Part shown: piece by piece, positions 1 to 15,586 of the stretch
How the letters are laid out: each line of letters opens with the position of its first letter
How positions within the stretch are numbered: the first letter of the stretch is position 1
DNA from: an uncultured Coriobacteriales bacterium
Lineage (GTDB): Bacteria > Actinomycetota > Coriobacteriia > Coriobacteriales > Atopobiaceae
Length of the DNA: 15,586 nt
Assembly: GCA_947305035.1 (NCBI GenBank)
Contig: CAMZCV010000005.1
Coordinates: 1 to 15,586 of the forward strand
Direction of reading: 5' to 3'
Translations under genes and position numbers: made by a program
The notes under the pieces: model-generated
The model's database searches: none
Seen by the model: only the letters and a program-made list of their open reading frames with translations
What the model was told of the DNA's origin: nothing

Positions 1-1680
1 GCAGCAGTTGCAGCCGATCCGCGCGAGAAGAACCCTCTGCTCGTCGGAGCTCAGGGAGCTGTAGCCCTCGTGCAGCTTATCCACGAGATTGACAAGTCGG
101 TTGTCCCCTTCGCTGTCATCCCAGATGGAGTCGCCCTCGTAGCCTGATTCGACATACTTGGATTGATCCGTGTTGTACGTTCCGGAAAAGAAGAGGTGGG
201 TGCCCCGCTGCCAGTCATTGAAGGCCTTCGCGGCATCGAGCAGCTCATCGTAGTTTTCCGACAGCCCTGCCTTGCGGTACGCCCAGCCCAACGACTGTAT
301 GGGGGCGATCAGGTAGGTGGGCGTGTGCAAACTGTATCGCCCGGCATCGCAGATGAGGGATTGCCCGCTCTCGTCGAAGAACGTGGGCATGACTTCGGTG
401 TCGATCCACGTGCACACGCCATCGTCCCAAGCGGTTCCCTGGTACAGGCATTCGAGCAGGTGCGTGACGCAGCCTATGGCATCGTTCATGCCGAGCGTGT
501 TGAAGCGGGCATGTGCGTCATCGAGGCAATCCATGCCTGGATCGAGCGCATTCGTAAGCGTCTCAGAACCCTTGTGGGTTGTATCGCCCCTCGTGAGCGC
601 CTCGCGCCAGTTTGTTGAGTTCTCGGTGTCCGAGAGGGCATAGATGTCGAACGGGGTGTGATGGCCGAACATCGGCATCTTGTTCCCGTGCTGCTTCTTG
701 TAGTTGCAGAACGCGAGGATCGAGCCTTGCGTGATACTGCCATCATGGAATGTGCGGACGGTATGGGCGGGGCACCAGAGGTCCTCGATGGTGTGGCATA
801 TCATTCCGAGCGCACGCAGGCGCAGTTCGCGGCGAGACAGCTTTACCGAAGCCTCATCCGAGCCCACCTGCAGCGACACGTGCATGTCGTGCGCGGTTTC
901 ATCGAGTTGGCCGTACGTGTCGATGAGGCCCCTGAAGATCTTCTCGGCCTGCGAGCTTGTGACATCATGCGTCATCATGACTTCGCCCGTGCGCGCGTAC
1001 TCGTAGGCAACGCCGAGCCATTGCATCACGAATCTTTTGACGTCGGACTGCGTGAGAAAACCCGAGTGGTCTGCCGTCGATGACAGCATGCCGTGCATGA
1101 AGCTGCCGCGGTCGTTTGCCGAGAACTGCACGAGTGCGTTCTCGTCATGCGAGGCTTGATTGGTCTCCAATAGGTGCTGACCAACATCCCAAACGCCCTC
1201 GTAGTGGCTGCTGCCCGAGAACTTGGGGATGGAGTCGGCGTTGAAGCATGAGATCGCATAATCTGCAAGCGTGTTCGCGGCGGCATCATTCCAATACGAC
1301 CCGATGCGCAGATAGGCGAGATTCTCGCGGTAGAGGTGCGTCGCGAGGTCGTCTGCATCGACAAACGCCCCGCCTTCGCCTACGTCCACGGTGTCTCCTG
1401 CAATCGTGGCATAGCGTGCATCGTCCTGCACTTCCCCTGCCCAGGGGTTCAGGAGTGAAGCATACTGTTCTGAATCGTCAGCATGGTTGCGCAGCACGCG
1501 TGCATAGGCGATCTGGGTTAGATCCTCGTGCAGGCAGTCGCCCATATGCATGCTGTACAAGACGGGTGCGGAGGCGTTTGTCCATGAGCTCCATGCAAAA
1601 GCCGGCTTGGACTGGAGCGCAAGAGAGGCAAGTCCCATGAGCGCTCCTGCGCCGAACAAGCCGCGACGTGTCAGATTCAT
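1..1680 (-). CDS. Tat-exported zinc-dependent phospholipase C-like protein (C-terminus cut by window edge)
   Basis: The reading frame is open from an ATG at 1680-1678 to the window edge, giving 560 residues with the C-terminus missing. Residues 1-29 form a twin-arginine signal (TRRGLF at 4-9, hydrophobic stretch, AFA before the cut), so the mature protein should start at Trp30. Zinc-dependent phospholipases C of the Bacillus cereus / Clostridium alpha-toxin family (PF00882) use their N-terminal Trp as a zinc ligand. The family core is visible at 291-306, LGMICHTIEDLWCPAH, giving H296, D300 and H306 in the H-x3-D-x5-H spacing of the family. H341 with D345 repeats the H-x3-E/D ligand pair. H51 and D132 are plausible further ligands. 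The known role is hydrolysis of phospholipid head groups outside the cell; the substrate here is unknown. It is longer than typical members (about 280-400 residues). The ribosome binding site AAGGAG lies only 2 bases from the ATG, but the Tat motif needs this start. It follows the Nif11-type peptide by 36 bases on the same strand, so co-transcription is likely. Confidence 0.82.
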   Translation of the reverse strand, partial: MNLTRRGLFGAGALMGLASLALQSKPAFAWSSWTNASAPVLYSMHMGDCLHEDLTQIAYARVLRNHADDSEQYASLLNPWAGEVQDDARYATIAGDTVDVGEGGAFVDADDLATHLYRENLAYLRIGSYWNDAAANTLADYAISCFNADSIPKFSGSSHYEGVWDVGQHLLETNQASHDENALVQFSANDRGSFMHGMLSSTADHSGFLTQSDVKRFVMQWLGVAYEYARTGEVMMTHDVTSSQAEKIFRGLIDTYGQLDETAHDMHVSLQVGSDEASVKLSRRELRLRALGMICHTIEDLWCPAHTVRTFHDGSITQGSILAFCNYKKQHGNKMPMFGHHTPFDIYALSDTENSTNWREALTRGDTTHKGSETLTNALDPGMDCLDDAHARFNTLGMNDAIGCVTHLLECLYQGTAWDDGVCTWIDTEVMPTFFDESGQSLICDAGRYSLHTPTYLIAPIQSLGWAYRKAGLSENYDELLDAAKAFNDWQRGTHLFFSGTYNTDQSKYVESGYEGDSIWDDSEGDNRLVNLVDKLHEGYSSLSSDEQRVLLARIGCNCC

Positions 1681-1716: not shown

Positions 1717-1923
1717 TTATTGCCACATAAAACCGGGGCAATCGTTTTTGTTGACGTACTCGGAACAGATATCCCAGCAATCCCAGTCGCCGCCGCTAAC
1801 GGCATCCAGCTCGCTATCGGTCAGCTCGTAACCCTCCTCCTTTGCAAGGGCCAGGATGTCCTCAGCCGTCCTGCATGCCTTTGCTTTCTCCTGCTACTCG
1901 GGGGTAAGGTTCTCAAAGTTCAT
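1717..1923 (-). pseudogene. Nif11-type leader RiPP precursor peptide, interrupted by an in-frame amber codon
   Basis: The ATG at 1923-1921 has a strong ribosome binding site (CCGGAGG, about 5 bases upstream). The frame has 69 codons and ends in TAA followed directly by TAG. Codon 10 is TAG (1896-1894), where CAG (Gln) would fit the leader family: MNFENLTPE, stop, QEKAKACRTAEDILALAKEE. Residues 17-45 match Nif11-like leaders of ribosomal peptide natural products, including GYELTDSELDAVSGG with the GG cleavage site at 44-45. The core, residues 46-68, has Cys at 49, 53 and 62 and Trp at 47, 50 and 67. It has one Ser and no Thr, which argues against many lanthionine rings. No ATG, GTG or TTG lies in frame between the amber codon and the GG site, so normal reinitiation would not restore the leader. 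The rest of the frame is undamaged. It could be a recent pseudogene, a sequencing error, or a gene read through by a suppressor. No modification enzyme or transporter gene is in the window. Confidence 0.75.
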
Positions 1924-2067
1924 CGCTGCCTCCGGACTACGAATGCGAATGAGTGAAACCGCTGATTATTCTACATGCATCGTCGTCCAATGCGCCTGCG
2001 GCTCCTTCTCGAGCGTGCTGGGCTATCATGAAACAAGTGCCACCTTGTTCTCGAAGGAGCTTCTTCC
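1924..2067. promoter_or_regulatory. Divergent intergenic region between the Nif11-type peptide and the DUF218 gene
   Basis: This 144-base gap must hold the promoters of two divergent units. On the minus strand TAGAAT (1973-1968) is a possible -10 box about 45 bases before the peptide ATG, and TTGGAC (1990-1985) sits upstream but with only 11 bases between, so it is not a standard pair. On the plus strand TATCAT (2024-2029) is a possible -10 box 38 bases before the DUF218 start, without a clear -35. The two ribosome binding sites are GGAGG on the minus strand next to 1930 and AAGGAG at 2054-2059. Confidence 0.35.
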
Positions 2068-3537
2068 ATGGCCCGCACGCTCGATTCCACAAAGGAGAGC
2101 GTCAAGCGCATCCGCCTGCGCTTCCTCGTTCTTGTCCCTCTTATCATCGCGTGCGCGTTGATATCCCGTGCGCACATCATCTCCGTCGGTTCGCGCTACG
2201 AGATGACCCTCAACGAGTATTCCGGAGTTGCGCTTACCGAGGAGAACTTCTCCTTCGACCCTCCCCAGATGATGCGGGTTGTTTCGGTGGAGCAGGACGA
2301 GGATGGCGCCAGCCACGTGGTCTTCGAGGCGGGAGAGCCGGGAAAGGGCATATGCCTTGTCAGCGCCCCCGATGGTGGAGGCATGTTCGAGATGGCAACC
2401 ACGGCCGACGGCGTCATCGTTGCCAACGGCTTCGAGGTTACTGGTTGGAGGGCGGTCTTCATCTCCCTCGTCACGGTGATATCCTGCCTCGCCGTGCTCT
2501 GCACGAGCGCGGTGGTTTCGCTGGTGCGTCGGTCCTGGTACGGCTACGAGATGGCTGCCTATTGCGGAGGCGCCCTCTTCTTCGCGTCGCAGGCAGTCCA
2601 GTTCATCGGCCTTTACCTGGGAGGAAGGATCTACTCGTTCGCCACGTTCGCGATTCGGGCCATCGTCATGGCAGACAACTTCCTCGAGGTGTCGCTGATT
2701 CCCATGGCCATCCTCGCGATTCTCGTGAGCGTCTCCAACGCGGCGCTCATGCGCTATGAGGGGAAGGGCTTCGGGAACATGCTGGGCATCCTTGCCAGCC
2801 TGTTCGGAGCGGCTGCGTTCTTCGGCCTGCGCTTCTTCCAAGAGGTCATCGACCAGCTCTTGATGAACTCCCTTCTGTCGATCATCTTCTCGACGGTGCT
2901 TTCGGCTCTGTACGCCTATTTCATGGCGCTGTTCCTCGGGGTTTGCATAACGGCGCTGTTCGCCGCGCACCACATGCCCTCCTTCCCGCGAAGCCACATC
3001 ATCATCTTGGGCTGCGGCCTGCGCGCGGACGGAATGCCCACCCCGCTGCTCGCCGGCCGCGTCGATGCGGCGCTGTCCTTTGCCGAGCGCCAGGTTTCCG
3101 AGGGCTACGATGCACCGGCCTTCGTTCCCAGCGGTGGGCAGGGGAGCGACGAGGCATGCTCGGAGGCATGCTCCATGGGGCGCTACATCGAGCAGCACAA
3201 TCCAGCGGCGAGGGTTCTGCTCGAGGACCGCTCCACCACCACGCGCGAGAATATGGCCTTCTCGGCGCGCGTCATCGCGGATGACGCTCCGTCCTCCGAG
3301 CAGCGCATCGCTTTCGCAACCACCAACTACCATGTGCTGCGCGGCTACGTCTTCGCACATCAGGCAGGTATGGAGGCCGAGGGCATCGCGTCTCCCACCA
3401 AGCTCTACTTCTGGCCCAATGCGTTTCTCCGCGAGTTCGTGGGCATGCTCGCAGCCCGCGCGCTCCCCATCCTGATGACCTGCCTCTCGATCATCACCCT
3501 CTACGGATTCCTCGAGTTTCTCCTGCTGCACCATTAA
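2068..3537 (+). CDS. Polytopic membrane protein with YdcF/DUF218 domain
   Basis: A 489-residue protein. One membrane segment lies at about 17-36, then an extracytoplasmic or loop region of about 90 residues (38-127), then several membrane segments between about 128 and 302. The DUF218 (YdcF/SanA/ElyC-type) domain follows from about 310: the Rossmann-like strand HIIILGCGL, the motif SGGQGSDE near 355-362 and EDRSTTTREN near 386-396 are typical. A last hydrophobic stretch covers about 460-487. DUF218 proteins are linked to envelope functions such as vancomycin sensitivity (SanA) and lipid carrier metabolism (ElyC), but the reaction is mostly unknown. The domain at the end of a multi-span protein resembles the longer YdcF-type proteins of Gram-positive bacteria. 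The start is supported by AAGGAG 8 bases upstream. A lipoprotein gene follows after 54 bases on the same strand. The family is clear; the function is open. Confidence 0.85.
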   Translation: MARTLDSTKESVKRIRLRFLVLVPLIIACALISRAHIISVGSRYEMTLNEYSGVALTEENFSFDPPQMMRVVSVEQDEDGASHVVFEAGEPGKGICLVSAPDGGGMFEMATTADGVIVANGFEVTGWRAVFISLVTVISCLAVLCTSAVVSLVRRSWYGYEMAAYCGGALFFASQAVQFIGLYLGGRIYSFATFAIRAIVMADNFLEVSLIPMAILAILVSVSNAALMRYEGKGFGNMLGILASLFGAAAFFGLRFFQEVIDQLLMNSLLSIIFSTVLSALYAYFMALFLGVCITALFAAHHMPSFPRSHIIILGCGLRADGMPTPLLAGRVDAALSFAERQVSEGYDAPAFVPSGGQGSDEACSEACSMGRYIEQHNPAARVLLEDRSTTTRENMAFSARVIADDAPSSEQRIAFATTNYHVLRGYVFAHQAGMEAEGIASPTKLYFWPNAFLREFVGMLAARALPILMTCLSIITLYGFLEFLLLHH

Positions 3538-3591
3538 AAAGGGACGGGTACAATTTAACGTTAAGTTCCTTCTTTTTGAGGTGAGGCCACC
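3525..3591 (+). promoter_or_regulatory. Possible promoter and palindromic site before the lipoprotein gene
   Basis: The gap between the DUF218 and lipoprotein genes has TACAAT (3549-3554), a fair -10 box 37 bases before the ATG; the sequence at the -35 distance is weak. Directly after it lies a perfect 10-bp palindrome, TTAACGTTAA (3555-3564), which stands out in high-GC DNA and could be an operator. The ribosome binding site is GAGGTGAGG about 8 bases before the start. Confidence 0.35.
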
Positions 3592-4680
3592 ATGAGACCT
3601 GCCGTCGCCGCTGTCCTGCTCGTCCTCGTCCTCGCTCTGGGAGGATGCTTCATTGCCGAGAAACCCACTCCCGACGACCGGTATGATCCCGAGCCCGGCA
3701 AGGGACCTGCGGCCTCTGCCGCGGAGCTCGATTTCTCCGGGCTTTCGGAGGTGCAGTACACCTACGAGAGCGGCATGACCTCGCCCGATATAACGCTCAA
3801 GGTGGAGATGACCGACATCACCCCAAACGGAGCCACGCTCCACGTGGAGAAGCGCACCAAGTGGATGGGGGAGTTCAGCAGCGCCACCTATCAGATGAGC
3901 GCGGACGATGTTGCGGGGTTCTGGGACATCATCTGCGAGTTCGATGCCGTGGCATGGTCGAACCTGCCCCGCAGGTCGAGCTACAGCGGGAACTCCCACA
4001 ACACGCTGCGGTTCGTGGTTGACGGAACCAGCTACTACCTCTTCGACATGATCGACTATCCCGATACGATGCCCCCGGTGAAGGACCGGTTCTACGCCAA
4101 GCTGTACAACTTCTTCAATGCGTTCGTCTCTGCCGACCCCGCGATGGAGGCGGCGTGGAGCGACGACCTGGTCGATCCAGCAGACATGCCGCGGAACCAG
4201 GAACGCACGGCCATCTTCCGCGGGCGCGAGGTCACGCTCAAGGCAGGTACCGGTTCGGACAACGGCGATAACGCGCTGATCCTCGAGCTGTCGGGCACTC
4301 GTTGGTGGATCGACGAGGGCCTGGTGGGCCGCTGGGTCCAGACCGAGGAAGACGTCCAGATGAACGGCAACGTGTTCGAACCGTATGGGTCGGCCGAGCT
4401 CTGGATCAATGAGGATGGCTCGTGGACCTTGCTGCTCGACGGTGTCGAGCACTCGGGCACGATGAACAGGAACCGCTACTACAACACGAGTGCGGGCGGC
4501 TTCATGACCGAGCCTATCAGCCGAGGCGTCGCGTTTTCCTACATCATCTACGAGGACGGGCAGGTGTGGCACTTCTCGCCCCAGGACGACCGCACGTCCG
4601 ACCACCTGAGCATGGAATGCGAGGGGCTGCCTTATCCCGAAGACCCCTACAGCTTCTGGCTCTACCTCACCCGCGAATGA
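3592..4680 (+). CDS. Secreted lipoprotein of unknown function
   Basis: A 362-residue protein with a lipoprotein signal peptide: charged start, hydrophobic stretch at 4-16 and lipobox ALGGC with the lipidated Cys at position 19. It should be anchored on the outer face of the cytoplasmic membrane. Residues 20-45 are a Pro/Ala-rich linker. The middle (about 46-190) is rich in beta-strand-like alternation and aromatic residues. The C-terminal part (about 245-362), starting at VGRWVQTEED, has the look of a lipocalin-like or META-like beta domain (GxW at the start, then ELWINEDGSWTLLLDG), but this is only a pattern impression. I do not recognise a family with confidence. The start has a good ribosome binding site. 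The TGA stop lies inside the first hairpin unit of the tandem repeat downstream. Confidence 0.75.
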   Translation: MRPAVAAVLLVLVLALGGCFIAEKPTPDDRYDPEPGKGPAASAAELDFSGLSEVQYTYESGMTSPDITLKVEMTDITPNGATLHVEKRTKWMGEFSSATYQMSADDVAGFWDIICEFDAVAWSNLPRRSSYSGNSHNTLRFVVDGTSYYLFDMIDYPDTMPPVKDRFYAKLYNFFNAFVSADPAMEAAWSDDLVDPADMPRNQERTAIFRGREVTLKAGTGSDNGDNALILELSGTRWWIDEGLVGRWVQTEEDVQMNGNVFEPYGSAELWINEDGSWTLLLDGVEHSGTMNRNRYYNTSAGGFMTEPISRGVAFSYIIYEDGQVWHFSPQDDRTSDHLSMECEGLPYPEDPYSFWLYLTRE

Positions 4681-4737
4681 GACAGGCTCCCGGGGAGGGT
4701 GTCTCAAATGAGACAGGCTCCCGGGGAGGGTGTCTCA
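4676..4737. terminator. Two perfect tandem 31-bp hairpin units, likely bidirectional terminator
   Basis: Two identical 31-base units, 4676-4706 and 4707-4737, each start AATGAGACAGG and end GGTGTCTCA. Within a unit TGAGACA pairs with TGTCTCA (7 bp), then a GG/GG internal loop, then CTCC pairs with GGAG around CGG. T residues follow on the plus strand (CATTT) and A residues precede each unit. The plus-strand lipoprotein stop TGA is the start of unit 1; the minus-strand HelD-like gene reads its own stop TGA from the end of unit 2. The position between convergent genes fits a shared terminator, but the exact duplication also suggests a REP-like repeat element. Confidence 0.7.
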
Positions 4738-6831
4738 TTTCAGGAGGGGGGAGAGGTCGCCTTGGGCGAGAAGGGTCACCTTGTGCATGGCGCGGCTGAT
4801 GGCCGTATAGAGGCGCCGCCTGGCGAGGGGCGTACCGAGGTAGTCGTTCCCATCCGCATCGGCGATGATCACATGGTCGAACTCGAGGCCCTTCGCAAGC
4901 GCCAGCGTGAGCAGCACCACGCCGCTCTTGGGCAGCGCGTCATTGCGGGCGAGCACGCGCACGCGGCCTCCGAGCTGCTTGTCGATCCAATGGACGGTCT
5001 CCTTGCGCTGCACGATGATGGCCGTGAGGCCCGAAGAAGCCTCCGCCTCATCCACCAGCCTTCCCAGCGTGCCGAGGTAGCTTTCGCGATCCTCGCAGAC
5101 GATCTGCTCGGGTTTCGTCCCCTCGCGTTGCACGGATGAGAGGCTCATCGCCACGTCGGCATCGAGCAGGCTCGCGAACAGCTCGGTGATCTCGGGGCTC
5201 GAACGATAGCTCGTGGTGAGTGCGCATTCTGCCACATCGCCATGAACCGCCGAGAAAATCCCGCGTATGGCGTCGAAGCTCGCGGCATGCTCGAAGATGG
5301 CCTGGTTCTCGTCGCCCAGCAGCAGGAAGTGCGCGTTGGCGAAGTAGCGCGCGAGCACCATGAGCTGGACCTCGGAGTAGTCCTGTACCTCGTCGATCAT
5401 GACGTAGCGCACGTGCTTGGCCTGCCCGCCCGCAACGAGCAGCTTGGTGTAGAGCCACTCCGCAGCAGTGAGGTCGCTCCTGCCCAGAAGGCGCATGCCG
5501 ATACGGTCGATGCGCAGCCACGCCGCGCTGTCGATGGCATCGTGCGCCGCGGCGAACCGCTTTGACACGTAGATGCGCGCCAGCGCACGGGTCTCCTCCT
5601 CATCGTAGGGAGCGATGGTGGAGTCGAAGTACTCCAGCTGGTCTTCGATGTCGAGGCCGAGCATGTCCTCCTGCATCTCGTCGTCCTTGGCGAGCGCGTC
5701 GAACCTGCGCTCCAGCTTCTCGTGAAGCTCCTCCTCAACGAGCGCGGCAAGGCGCGGACCTGCGGGAATGCGACTGAACTTCTCCACGGCGTTCTTGATC
5801 TGGGCCGCGGTGAGGAGACGTACGCCGTCCACGCGGATCTCGCGCAGGTCGCCCGCCTCGAGGGTCATGGATGCAACGGCGCGCTCGAGCCGCCTGAGCT
5901 CATCCGCGCTGCCCTGCGCGCCGGAGTTGCGCCCGGAAAGATCGAGCGAGGCGAGGAAGGCGTCCCAGGTGACCGTCTGCGGGTTGGATTCGCCCAGCGT
6001 GGGCAGTACGGTGTCGATGTAGTGCACGAACATCTGGTTGGGCGTGAAGAGGAAGACCTGCTTGGGATCGAGGGTCTTGCGCTGGTTGTAGAAGAGGTAG
6101 GCGATGCGCTGGAGCATGACGCTCGTCTTGCCCGACCCCGCGATGCCGCTCACGAGCAGCACGGGCACGTCCTCGTGGCGCACCACGGTGTTCTGCTCGC
6201 GCTGGATGGTGGCGGTGATGGCCTGGAGCTTCTCGGTGTGGTGCGCCTTGAGCGCGGCGAGCAGCAGCGAGTCCTCGATGGCCACGGTGGTGTCGAAGTA
6301 CATGTTGAGCTTGTCGCGCACGATGTCGAACTGGCGGCGCAGCAGCAGCTCCACGGTGCGGGCCTTGCCGTCCATGAGGTAGCTCGTCTCGCCCATCTCC
6401 TGGTTGTAGTAGGTCTCGGCAACGGGGGAGCGCCAGTCCACGATGAAGGGGATGGAGCGCTCGTCGGTCATGCCAGCTGCGCCGATATAGACGTCGCGCG
6501 GAGGCCTGCCGGGGCGCATCTTGAGGGTGACCTTGGCGAAGTAGGGCTGGCGCAGCAGCATGATGGCGCGCCTGAGCTCGTCGAGCTTGATGTCGTGGTA
6601 CTGGTTGTAGGCGTCGATGACGGCGTTCAGGGTCTCGATGGCCGCGAGGGTCTCCATGGTCTCGTCGGCGCTGTTGAAGTTGAGGCGGACCTCCTCGCTC
6701 ATATCGATAAGGTCCTGGGCCGCGCCGGCGTGGTCGCTCTCGAGATCTGCGGTTAGCGCGTCGCGTATCTGCTCGAGCTTGGCATAAACCTCGAGAAGAT
6801 GCTGCTGCTCCTGGCTGAAGGTCTCGTCCAT
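4735..6831 (-). CDS. HelD-like UvrD/Rep-family helicase
   Basis: A 698-residue protein. The first 90 residues are helical and charged, as in the N-terminal arm that HelD proteins insert into RNA polymerase. SF1 helicase motifs follow: Walker A GIAGSGKT at 229-236, DEVQDY at about 480, LLLGDENQAIFE just after, and AKGLEFDHVI with YTAISRAM near the C-terminus. HelD (helicase IV-like) proteins of Gram-positive bacteria bind RNA polymerase and help to release it from stalled or inactive complexes; some confer rifampicin tolerance. Here that role is inferred from family. The ATG at 6831-6829 is chosen because GAGGAG lies about 5 bases upstream, the protein then begins like other HelD proteins, and it follows the stop of the upstream helicase by one base (TGA-C-ATG). 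A longer frame up to 7014 exists but overlaps the helicase gene. The end of the gene forms part of the tandem hairpin. Confidence 0.9.
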   Translation of the reverse strand: MDETFSQEQQHLLEVYAKLEQIRDALTADLESDHAGAAQDLIDMSEEVRLNFNSADETMETLAAIETLNAVIDAYNQYHDIKLDELRRAIMLLRQPYFAKVTLKMRPGRPPRDVYIGAAGMTDERSIPFIVDWRSPVAETYYNQEMGETSYLMDGKARTVELLLRRQFDIVRDKLNMYFDTTVAIEDSLLLAALKAHHTEKLQAITATIQREQNTVVRHEDVPVLLVSGIAGSGKTSVMLQRIAYLFYNQRKTLDPKQVFLFTPNQMFVHYIDTVLPTLGESNPQTVTWDAFLASLDLSGRNSGAQGSADELRRLERAVASMTLEAGDLREIRVDGVRLLTAAQIKNAVEKFSRIPAGPRLAALVEEELHEKLERRFDALAKDDEMQEDMLGLDIEDQLEYFDSTIAPYDEEETRALARIYVSKRFAAAHDAIDSAAWLRIDRIGMRLLGRSDLTAAEWLYTKLLVAGGQAKHVRYVMIDEVQDYSEVQLMVLARYFANAHFLLLGDENQAIFEHAASFDAIRGIFSAVHGDVAECALTTSYRSSPEITELFASLLDADVAMSLSSVQREGTKPEQIVCEDRESYLGTLGRLVDEAEASSGLTAIIVQRKETVHWIDKQLGGRVRVLARNDALPKSGVVLLTLALAKGLEFDHVIIADADGNDYLGTPLARRRLYTAISRAMHKVTLLAQGDLSPLLK

Positions 6832-14880: not shown

Positions 14881-15586
14881 CGGATGAGGAGCTCGAGGGT
14901 TTGATCGGCGCTGCATATGCGCAGGTCGAGATGAGCCCCGAGGCCGAGGAGCGCATCCTTGCCAACCTCCTCGCCGCAGAAGCGGATTCTGTCAAAGGGA
15001 CAGGTTATTTGACAGGATTCTCCTCCGTCGATGGAGATGGGGAAAAGCATGCGGGCGATCCTGTCAAGAAACCTGTCCCTTCGACAGGTTCTTCTCGCCG
15101 CCGCACCTCCGGATGGCGCCGGGTTGCCCCCGCAGCCATCGCTGCCGTCCTGCTCATCGGGATCTTCGTGGGAACCAATCTCCGTCCGTCATTCAACACC
15201 GCCGACAACGCGATGCCCAGCGTGGCCACCGAGAAAGCTGCCGAGGCGGCAGACGAGTCTGCCGATGCCGGTGGAGGGGTGATGCTCATCAACGGCGCTG
15301 CTGAGAGCGCGCCCGCGCCCGCGCCCGCCCCAGAGCCTGAGCCTGCTCCCGAACCGTCTTCCGACTCCGCTCCGATGAGGGTGGATGGTGCAGAGGCTGA
15401 GAGCTATGCGGTCTCCGACAGCGAGAAAAAGGAGTATGCCGAGGTCATCGTCCTTGAGGACGGTCGCCGCTTTGCCATCGTCGACCTCTACGTGCCCGAG
15501 GAGCTCGATCCGGGCGAGCTGGACTGGCAGCCAGCGACGCTCGAGGCCACTGGCGACACAGTTGATGTCGCGCTGCTCGATGACGG
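14877..15586 (+). CDS. Single-span membrane protein, probable anti-sigma factor (C-terminus cut by window edge)
   Basis: The frame opens at the ATG overlapping the sigma factor stop and stays open to the window edge, giving 236 residues. GGAGGTGG about 8 bases upstream is a good ribosome binding site. Residues 1-36 are acidic and helical and would be cytoplasmic; 38-72 are encoded by a palindromic repeat (see separate entry); SRRR and WRR at 73-82 precede one membrane segment at 83-99. Outside are Ala/Glu-rich residues, a Pro-rich linker of AP and EP repeats (about 145-160) and the start of a globular domain from about 178 (EYAEVIVLEDGRRFAIVDLYVP). The topology and overlap fit an anti-sigma factor holding the ECF sigma at the membrane. 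No zinc-binding HxxxCxxC motif is seen, so it is not a classical ZAS type. The function is inferred from context. Confidence 0.75.
   Translation, partial: MTDEELEGLIGAAYAQVEMSPEAEERILANLLAAEADSVKGTGYLTGFSSVDGDGEKHAGDPVKKPVPSTGSSRRRTSGWRRVAPAAIAAVLLIGIFVGTNLRPSFNTADNAMPSVATEKAAEAADESADAGGGVMLINGAAESAPAPAPAPEPEPAPEPSSDSAPMRVDGAEAESYAVSDSEKKEYAEVIVLEDGRRFAIVDLYVPEELDPGELDWQPATLEATGDTVDVALLDD
14989..15091. repeat. Imperfect ~35-bp inverted repeat (REP/MITE-like) inside the anti-sigma gene
   Basis: The left arm (14987-15020) and the reverse complement of the right arm (15057-15091) align with only a few mismatches. Both contain AAGGGACAGGTT, then TTGACAGGAT. The right arm also folds by itself: ACCTGTC pairs with GACAGGT around CCTTC (15071-15089). 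The spacer between the arms is about 36 bases. The whole element is read in frame and adds about 35 residues between the cytoplasmic helix and the membrane segment. It looks like a mobile palindromic repeat that was tolerated in a linker. Confidence 0.7.

Follow-up and report, generated by a model that had tools for sequence, protein, structure and literature searches.

The stretch of DNA analysed here (the window, 15,586 nucleotides) is the whole of contig C5 of G000, a metagenome-assembled genome of an uncultured Coriobacteriales bacterium (1.66 Mb in 339 contigs, 68.75% complete). On its minus strand lies a short gene with the layout of a Nif11-leader RiPP precursor, in which an amber codon interrupts the leader, and next to it a gene that runs off the contig:

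1717..1923, minus strand: Nif11-leader RiPP precursor gene with TAG at codon 10, probably a recent nonsense pseudogene (translation, codons, PF07862 match, Gln in the relative P0001)
1894..1896, minus strand: in-frame TAG, codon 10 (codon reading)
1786..1923, minus strand: leader, codons 1-46, ending in the VSGG double-glycine site (GG at codons 44-45), where cleavage would occur (translation; double glycine kept in alignment A1)
1720..1788, minus strand: putative core DWDCWDICSEYVNKNDCPGFMWQ, codons 46-68 (translation; same in P0001)
1924..1940, minus strand: ribosome-binding site region CCGGAGGCAGCG, directly 5' of the ATG
1..1680, minus strand: Tat-signal-like, phospholipase-C-like gene running off the contig end, 36 bases 3' of the co-oriented precursor (weak PF00882 match)

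Translation of positions 1923 to 1717 on the minus strand gives MNFENLTPE*QEKAKACRTAEDILALAKEEGYELTDSELDAVSGGDWDCWDICSEYVNKNDCPGFMWQ*, that is, nine residues, TAG, 58 sense codons and then TAA, the natural stop, which is directly followed by TAG. A GGAGG motif is located six bases 5' of the ATG, the core contains three Cys and three Trp, and with the TAG read as Gln the intact precursor has 68 residues. A preliminary description of this DNA had listed the ribosome-binding site, the ATG, the TAG at codon 10, 58 intact codons, VSGG and the core with its Cys and Trp residues, and had held that nothing downstream of the TAG is damaged. Translation and codon reading confirmed each of these elements and revealed sense codons throughout to the TAA, with no second lesion.

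Its assignment as a Nif11-type RiPP precursor was likewise borne out. With the TAG read as Gln, residues 8-39 reach 34.0 bits with Pfam Nif11 (PF07862), above the gathering score of 23.8 (E 3.6e-8), while the NCBIfam leader model TIGR03798 gave 28.8 bits and so fell short of its cut-off of 32.3. VSGG/D occupies codons 42-46, and glycines 44-45 are invariant in alignment A1, in keeping with a double-glycine leader end.

Comparison with public proteins gave 262 relatives of the precursor at E <=1e-3, of which 120 were listed. The closest among these 120 of 262 is P0001, a metagenomic protein of 68 residues with an intact frame that shares 88% identity and carries a Gln at codon 10, so that a Gln fits there, as had been proposed. 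Because of the Pfam Nif11 match and this full-length public protein, the precursor frame is more than a chance open frame. Besides the stop, P0001 and the window gene differ at eight positions, all within codons 5-29, and codons 30-68 are identical (Fisher P 0.0005 for the uneven spread). In this pair the leader has diverged and the core is fixed, the opposite of the usual pattern of conserved leader and variable core; recombination, or constraint acting on the core, may explain this. A second relative, P0006, has the same core in 46 residues, with a predicted start at codon 23, and is the sole protein below 50 residues among the 120 listed of 262. Its short form could be due to damage in the 5' half of the gene or to the end of the contig, and the call from codon 23 might mark an early stop recurring in the copy of another strain.

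Genomic setting of the precursor gene

Much of the window between 4.7 and 15.2 kb is 85-91% identical to G003, a genome of the same genus. Positions 1-2100, which include the precursor, have no counterpart in G003; at the orthologous locus of G003 and G002 the DUF218 gene is present and a Nif11 gene is absent, and a precursor at the same place was not found in any other genome of the genus examined. Three short stretches of the window (4676-4741, 3534-3562 and 14984-15020) occur in many copies in G003 and are probably dispersed repeats.

The phospholipase-C-like gene matched PF00882 with 18.4 bits, below the cut-off of 26.8. It is a possible operon partner of the precursor, one that the explanation given below does not need, and was rejected as a fixed partner because UBA3686 (G163) carries a homologue without an adjacent Nif11 gene. 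That homologue adjoins a fragment which, by eye, is integrase-like. No RiPP enzymes were detected in the seven window proteins scanned with NCBIfam, a set without the helicase-like and gatZ-like genes, and two neighbours had no anti-phage defence match. Of 119 stretches of viral contigs that fitted a pattern, none encodes a relative.

At other loci, Nif11 blocks on G000 contig C8 (L108, 8594-9299) and in UBA3686 (L063, DFIX01, 2916-4161) are 97.0% (334 bases) and 92.8% (373 bases) identical; window genes shared with UBA3686 are 67-71% identical, and the flanks of these two Nif11 blocks are without a match. The block identity suggests recent transfer of precursor cassettes.

Reading of TAG in the host genome

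In G000, prfA, which encodes RF1, is present as two contig-end pieces (C218, 370 bits; C75, 109.5 bits), each below the full-length cut-off of 423, that cover profile positions 5-275 and 260-357 and together 5-357. TAG ends the gatZ-like and ferredoxin genes of the window, as the preliminary description had stated, and none of the other window gene ends read is a TAG. With prfA present and TAG terminating two window genes, whole-genome reassignment of TAG is unlikely, in agreement with the earlier view.

No tRNA(CUA) was detected among the 27 tRNA hits of G000, of which ARAGORN named 25 and the other two, at contig ends, were assigned by eye to Ile GAT. As the genome is 69% complete, a suppressor tRNA may have escaped this set. 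The same search of G096, the carrier of three TAG leaders, yielded no tRNA(CUA) among 52 tRNA hits. PylS was absent from G000 (0 of 1) and from its relatives (0 of 9), with a control above its cut-off in 1 of 14 genomes. Dedicated decoding of the TAG, by pyrrolysine or a suppressor tRNA, would thus have to be encoded in the third of the genome that is absent from the assembly, for which a completeness of 68.75% leaves room. However, the lack of PylS in G000 and nine relatives, the lack of a CTA anticodon in the tRNA hits of G000 and G096, the presence of prfA and the use of TAG at the ends of normal genes make this explanation extremely improbable. The suppression or recoding that had been offered as one option for the window TAG thus found no support, nor does the family show a common TAG context, and frameshift and start-loss lesions occur among its members.

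Translation might also restart after the stop and give a precursor with a shortened leader, for which the call of P0006 from codon 23 could speak, as could the Val codons that L099 and L107 carry in frame, past or close to the start of the leader. In the window gene, however, there is no in-frame ATG, GTG or TTG between the stop and the core, and a restarted product would lack the recognised Nif11 part, leaving internal restart very improbable.

Leader stops across the Nif11 family

Nif11 matches at E 1e-5 were found in 40 of 140 genomes of the family, G008 alone holds 40 matches, and G000 and the family contain many dispersed Nif11 precursors. Stops inside the leader were read in at least 13 of 322 matches (10 TAG, three TAA, no TGA), that is, in at least about 4% of the matched copies, a tally that combines two queries and two E limits (1e-3 for G008 and G000, 1e-5 for the genera of G096 and G012). 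By source, the genus of G096 contributes at least six among the matches listed of 163, the genus of G012 four of 113, G008 two of 40 and G000 one of six. Thirteen rows read as broken correspond to 12 genes, the window gene appearing twice (as the window and as L001), and L107, which covered too few model columns to be among those rows, brings the number to 13. Two further candidates, L098 (G094:C48) and L103 (G008:C127), were rejected and left uncounted, their stops being natural ends after the core. The stops lie as follows:

Window gene: TAG, codon 10
L169: TAG, codon 10
L099: TAG, codon 11
L101: TAG, codon 11
L168: TAG, codon 12
L189: TAG, codon 13
L188: TAG, codon 15
L102: TAG, codon about 21, with a second lesion (no ATG at the expected place)
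L106: TAG, codon 33
L107: TAG just before VSGG
L100: TAA, codon 21
L105: TAA, codon 30
L104: TAA, codon 32

These stops bear on whether the window TAG is a sequencing or assembly error in an otherwise intact gene. An error would be compatible with the fragmented state of G000 (339 contigs), with the intact remainder of the gene and with the Gln in P0001, but single-base consensus errors are rare in assembled short reads, and independent leader stops are present in at least 12 other copies from seven other genomes. We therefore consider an error improbable.

Several kinds of lesion among sister copies, a mark of pseudogenes, were found in G096, a 96% complete genome of the same family, where 19 copies matched and damage was seen in 7 of the 17 that were read. 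Four carry stops (L168, L169, L099 and L100), two carry frameshifts (L176 and L180) and one has probably lost its start (L178, with ATA at the start position); stops, frameshifts and start loss together therefore form a mixture as decay gives. Decay is common across the Nif11 family. By eye, the damaged share in G096 is above that in other genomes. Zinc-ribbon-like cores with paired CxxC, which are not short and RiPP-like, follow the leaders of L099, L101, L105, L171, L176, L181 and L187, three of them stop-bearing.

The expectation for stops was computed from the single-base changes giving stops in 117 stop-free leader rows, in 80 of which codon 10 is CAG or CAA; positions 10 and 11 hold Gln codons, which a single C-to-T change can turn into TAG. 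The excess of TAG over TAA and TGA fits this single-base expectation (69-74% TAG expected, 10 of 13 observed; P 0.38-0.55 for at least 10 TAG). With regard to position, seven of the 10 TAGs fall at codons 10-15 against 22-43% expected, depending on the transition weight (P 0.002 unweighted, 0.08 with strong C-to-T bias). As the range 10-15 was chosen post hoc and the excess is weakened by removal of core columns, this clustering is a weak hint. No shared motif or context around the leader TAGs was seen by eye.

If the stop were tolerated, ribosomes would still pass an early TAG now and then, by weak read-through or by near-cognate decoding, some precursor would be made, and early TAGs would persist in the family. 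Such tolerance would agree with the clustering at codons 10-15, with TAGs at codons 10-12 in three of the four stop-bearing G096 copies, and with intact downstream parts and a core equal to that of P0001. Against it stand the dependence of P on mutation weights (0.002 to 0.08) for a range picked post hoc, the lack of a common TAG context and of a tRNA(CUA) in the G096 hits, and the TAA stops and frameshifts that are also present in the family; we give it a small chance. The same small chance applies to the bolder proposal that Nif11 leaders of gut Coriobacteriales tolerate or use amber at codons 10-15, such that read-through would yield precursor in small amounts and the stop would dim the output of a large precursor library instead of abolishing it, a proposal kept alive by the TAG position bias and P0006. 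Genome mining that drops stop-bearing frames would miss real peptides if amber codons early in the leader were tolerated.

Origin of the stop and comparison with known systems

Taken together, the window gene is very probably a recent nonsense pseudogene in a birth-and-death family of Nif11 precursors. The "freshly silenced peptide" of the preliminary description fits these data, with a single nonsense codon where P0001 has Gln, no other lesion, and TAG as a normal stop. Points against a pseudogene are the undamaged part after the stop, with codons 30-68 as in P0001 and eight differences in codons 5-29, the position of seven of 10 TAGs at codons 10-15, and the call of P0006 from codon 23.

How an intact copy would be matured is suggested by neighbours of related genes. 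Of 138 proteins encoded in the neighbourhood of Nif11 genes in public genomes, three match Radical_SAM and five match the NHLP peptidase-exporter model TIGR03796. A radical SAM protein with the motif CNFDCPYC was found at seven loci (six genes, as L038 and L075 are one gene); the closest model for the six radical SAM loci scanned was TIGR04463, at 199-220 bits and thus below its cut-off of 525, and the exporter at L037, cut by the contig end, scored 670 bits with TIGR03796 against a cut-off of 853. A search with one maturase found no solved structures at E 1e-10. In G000 itself, contig C78 (L109, 1862-4022, minus strand) encodes a 219-residue Nif11-domain open reading frame with a Cys-rich tail just upstream of a radical SAM/SPASM protein. 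Because maturases and exporters lie near Nif11 genes of relatives and because of the C78 pair, precursors of this family are likely to be modified by a radical SAM enzyme and cut at the double glycine by a C39-type peptidase, and the product of an intact window gene may have taken the same route.

In the proposed course of events, an intact copy would give a 68-residue precursor whose leader is recognised by the maturase, and a C39-type peptidase/exporter would cut after the double glycine, the Cys/Trp-rich core being modified and exported. A single-base change at the glutamine codon would then have created the stop. Because codon 10 is now a stop, translation should end after nine residues, and no core would be made from the window gene. 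The event appears to be recent. The many dispersed precursor copies would gain and lose function quickly, and because there are so many, the loss of one would cost little. The most likely explanation is that the gene was lost recently in the ordinary way, and not that the genetic code is read in a novel manner. On its own, as a pseudogene, the window gene carries little weight, but it points to a large, fast-turning Nif11 precursor family in Coriobacteriales, probably of the ruminant gut, which, with at least about 4% of copies bearing a leader stop, is a good system for measuring the birth and death of RiPP precursors.

With pyrrolysine or amber recoding the window gene shares an in-frame TAG and an intact downstream frame, whereas its genome differs in the presence of RF1 and in that neither PylS nor tRNA(CUA) was found. 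Closer are the Nif11-like leader RiPP precursors (PF07862, TIGR03798; including prochlorosins), with which it has in common the leader match, the double-glycine end, a short variable Cys/Trp-bearing core and many dispersed paralogues per genome, and from which it differs by its score below the TIGR03798 cut-off and the stop at codon 10. Unlike prochlorosin-type Nif11 hosts, its host belongs to the Coriobacteriales and is not a cyanobacterium, and a literature search found nothing joining nif11 with Coriobacteri-. With a single Ser and without any Thr, the window core does not stand out as a lanthipeptide substrate. The precursor swarms of prochlorosins and synechococsins are served by one promiscuous LanM (PMC10783134), and the main text of that paper does not contain stop codon, truncat-, pseudogen- or degenerat-. 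Close to relatives here, the search for Radical_SAM turned up maturases of the radical SAM/SPASM type, a difference from this prochlorosin LanM. The swarms described in PMC10783134 and the family analysed here are nonetheless alike in being large sets of Nif11-leader precursors with hypervariable cores.
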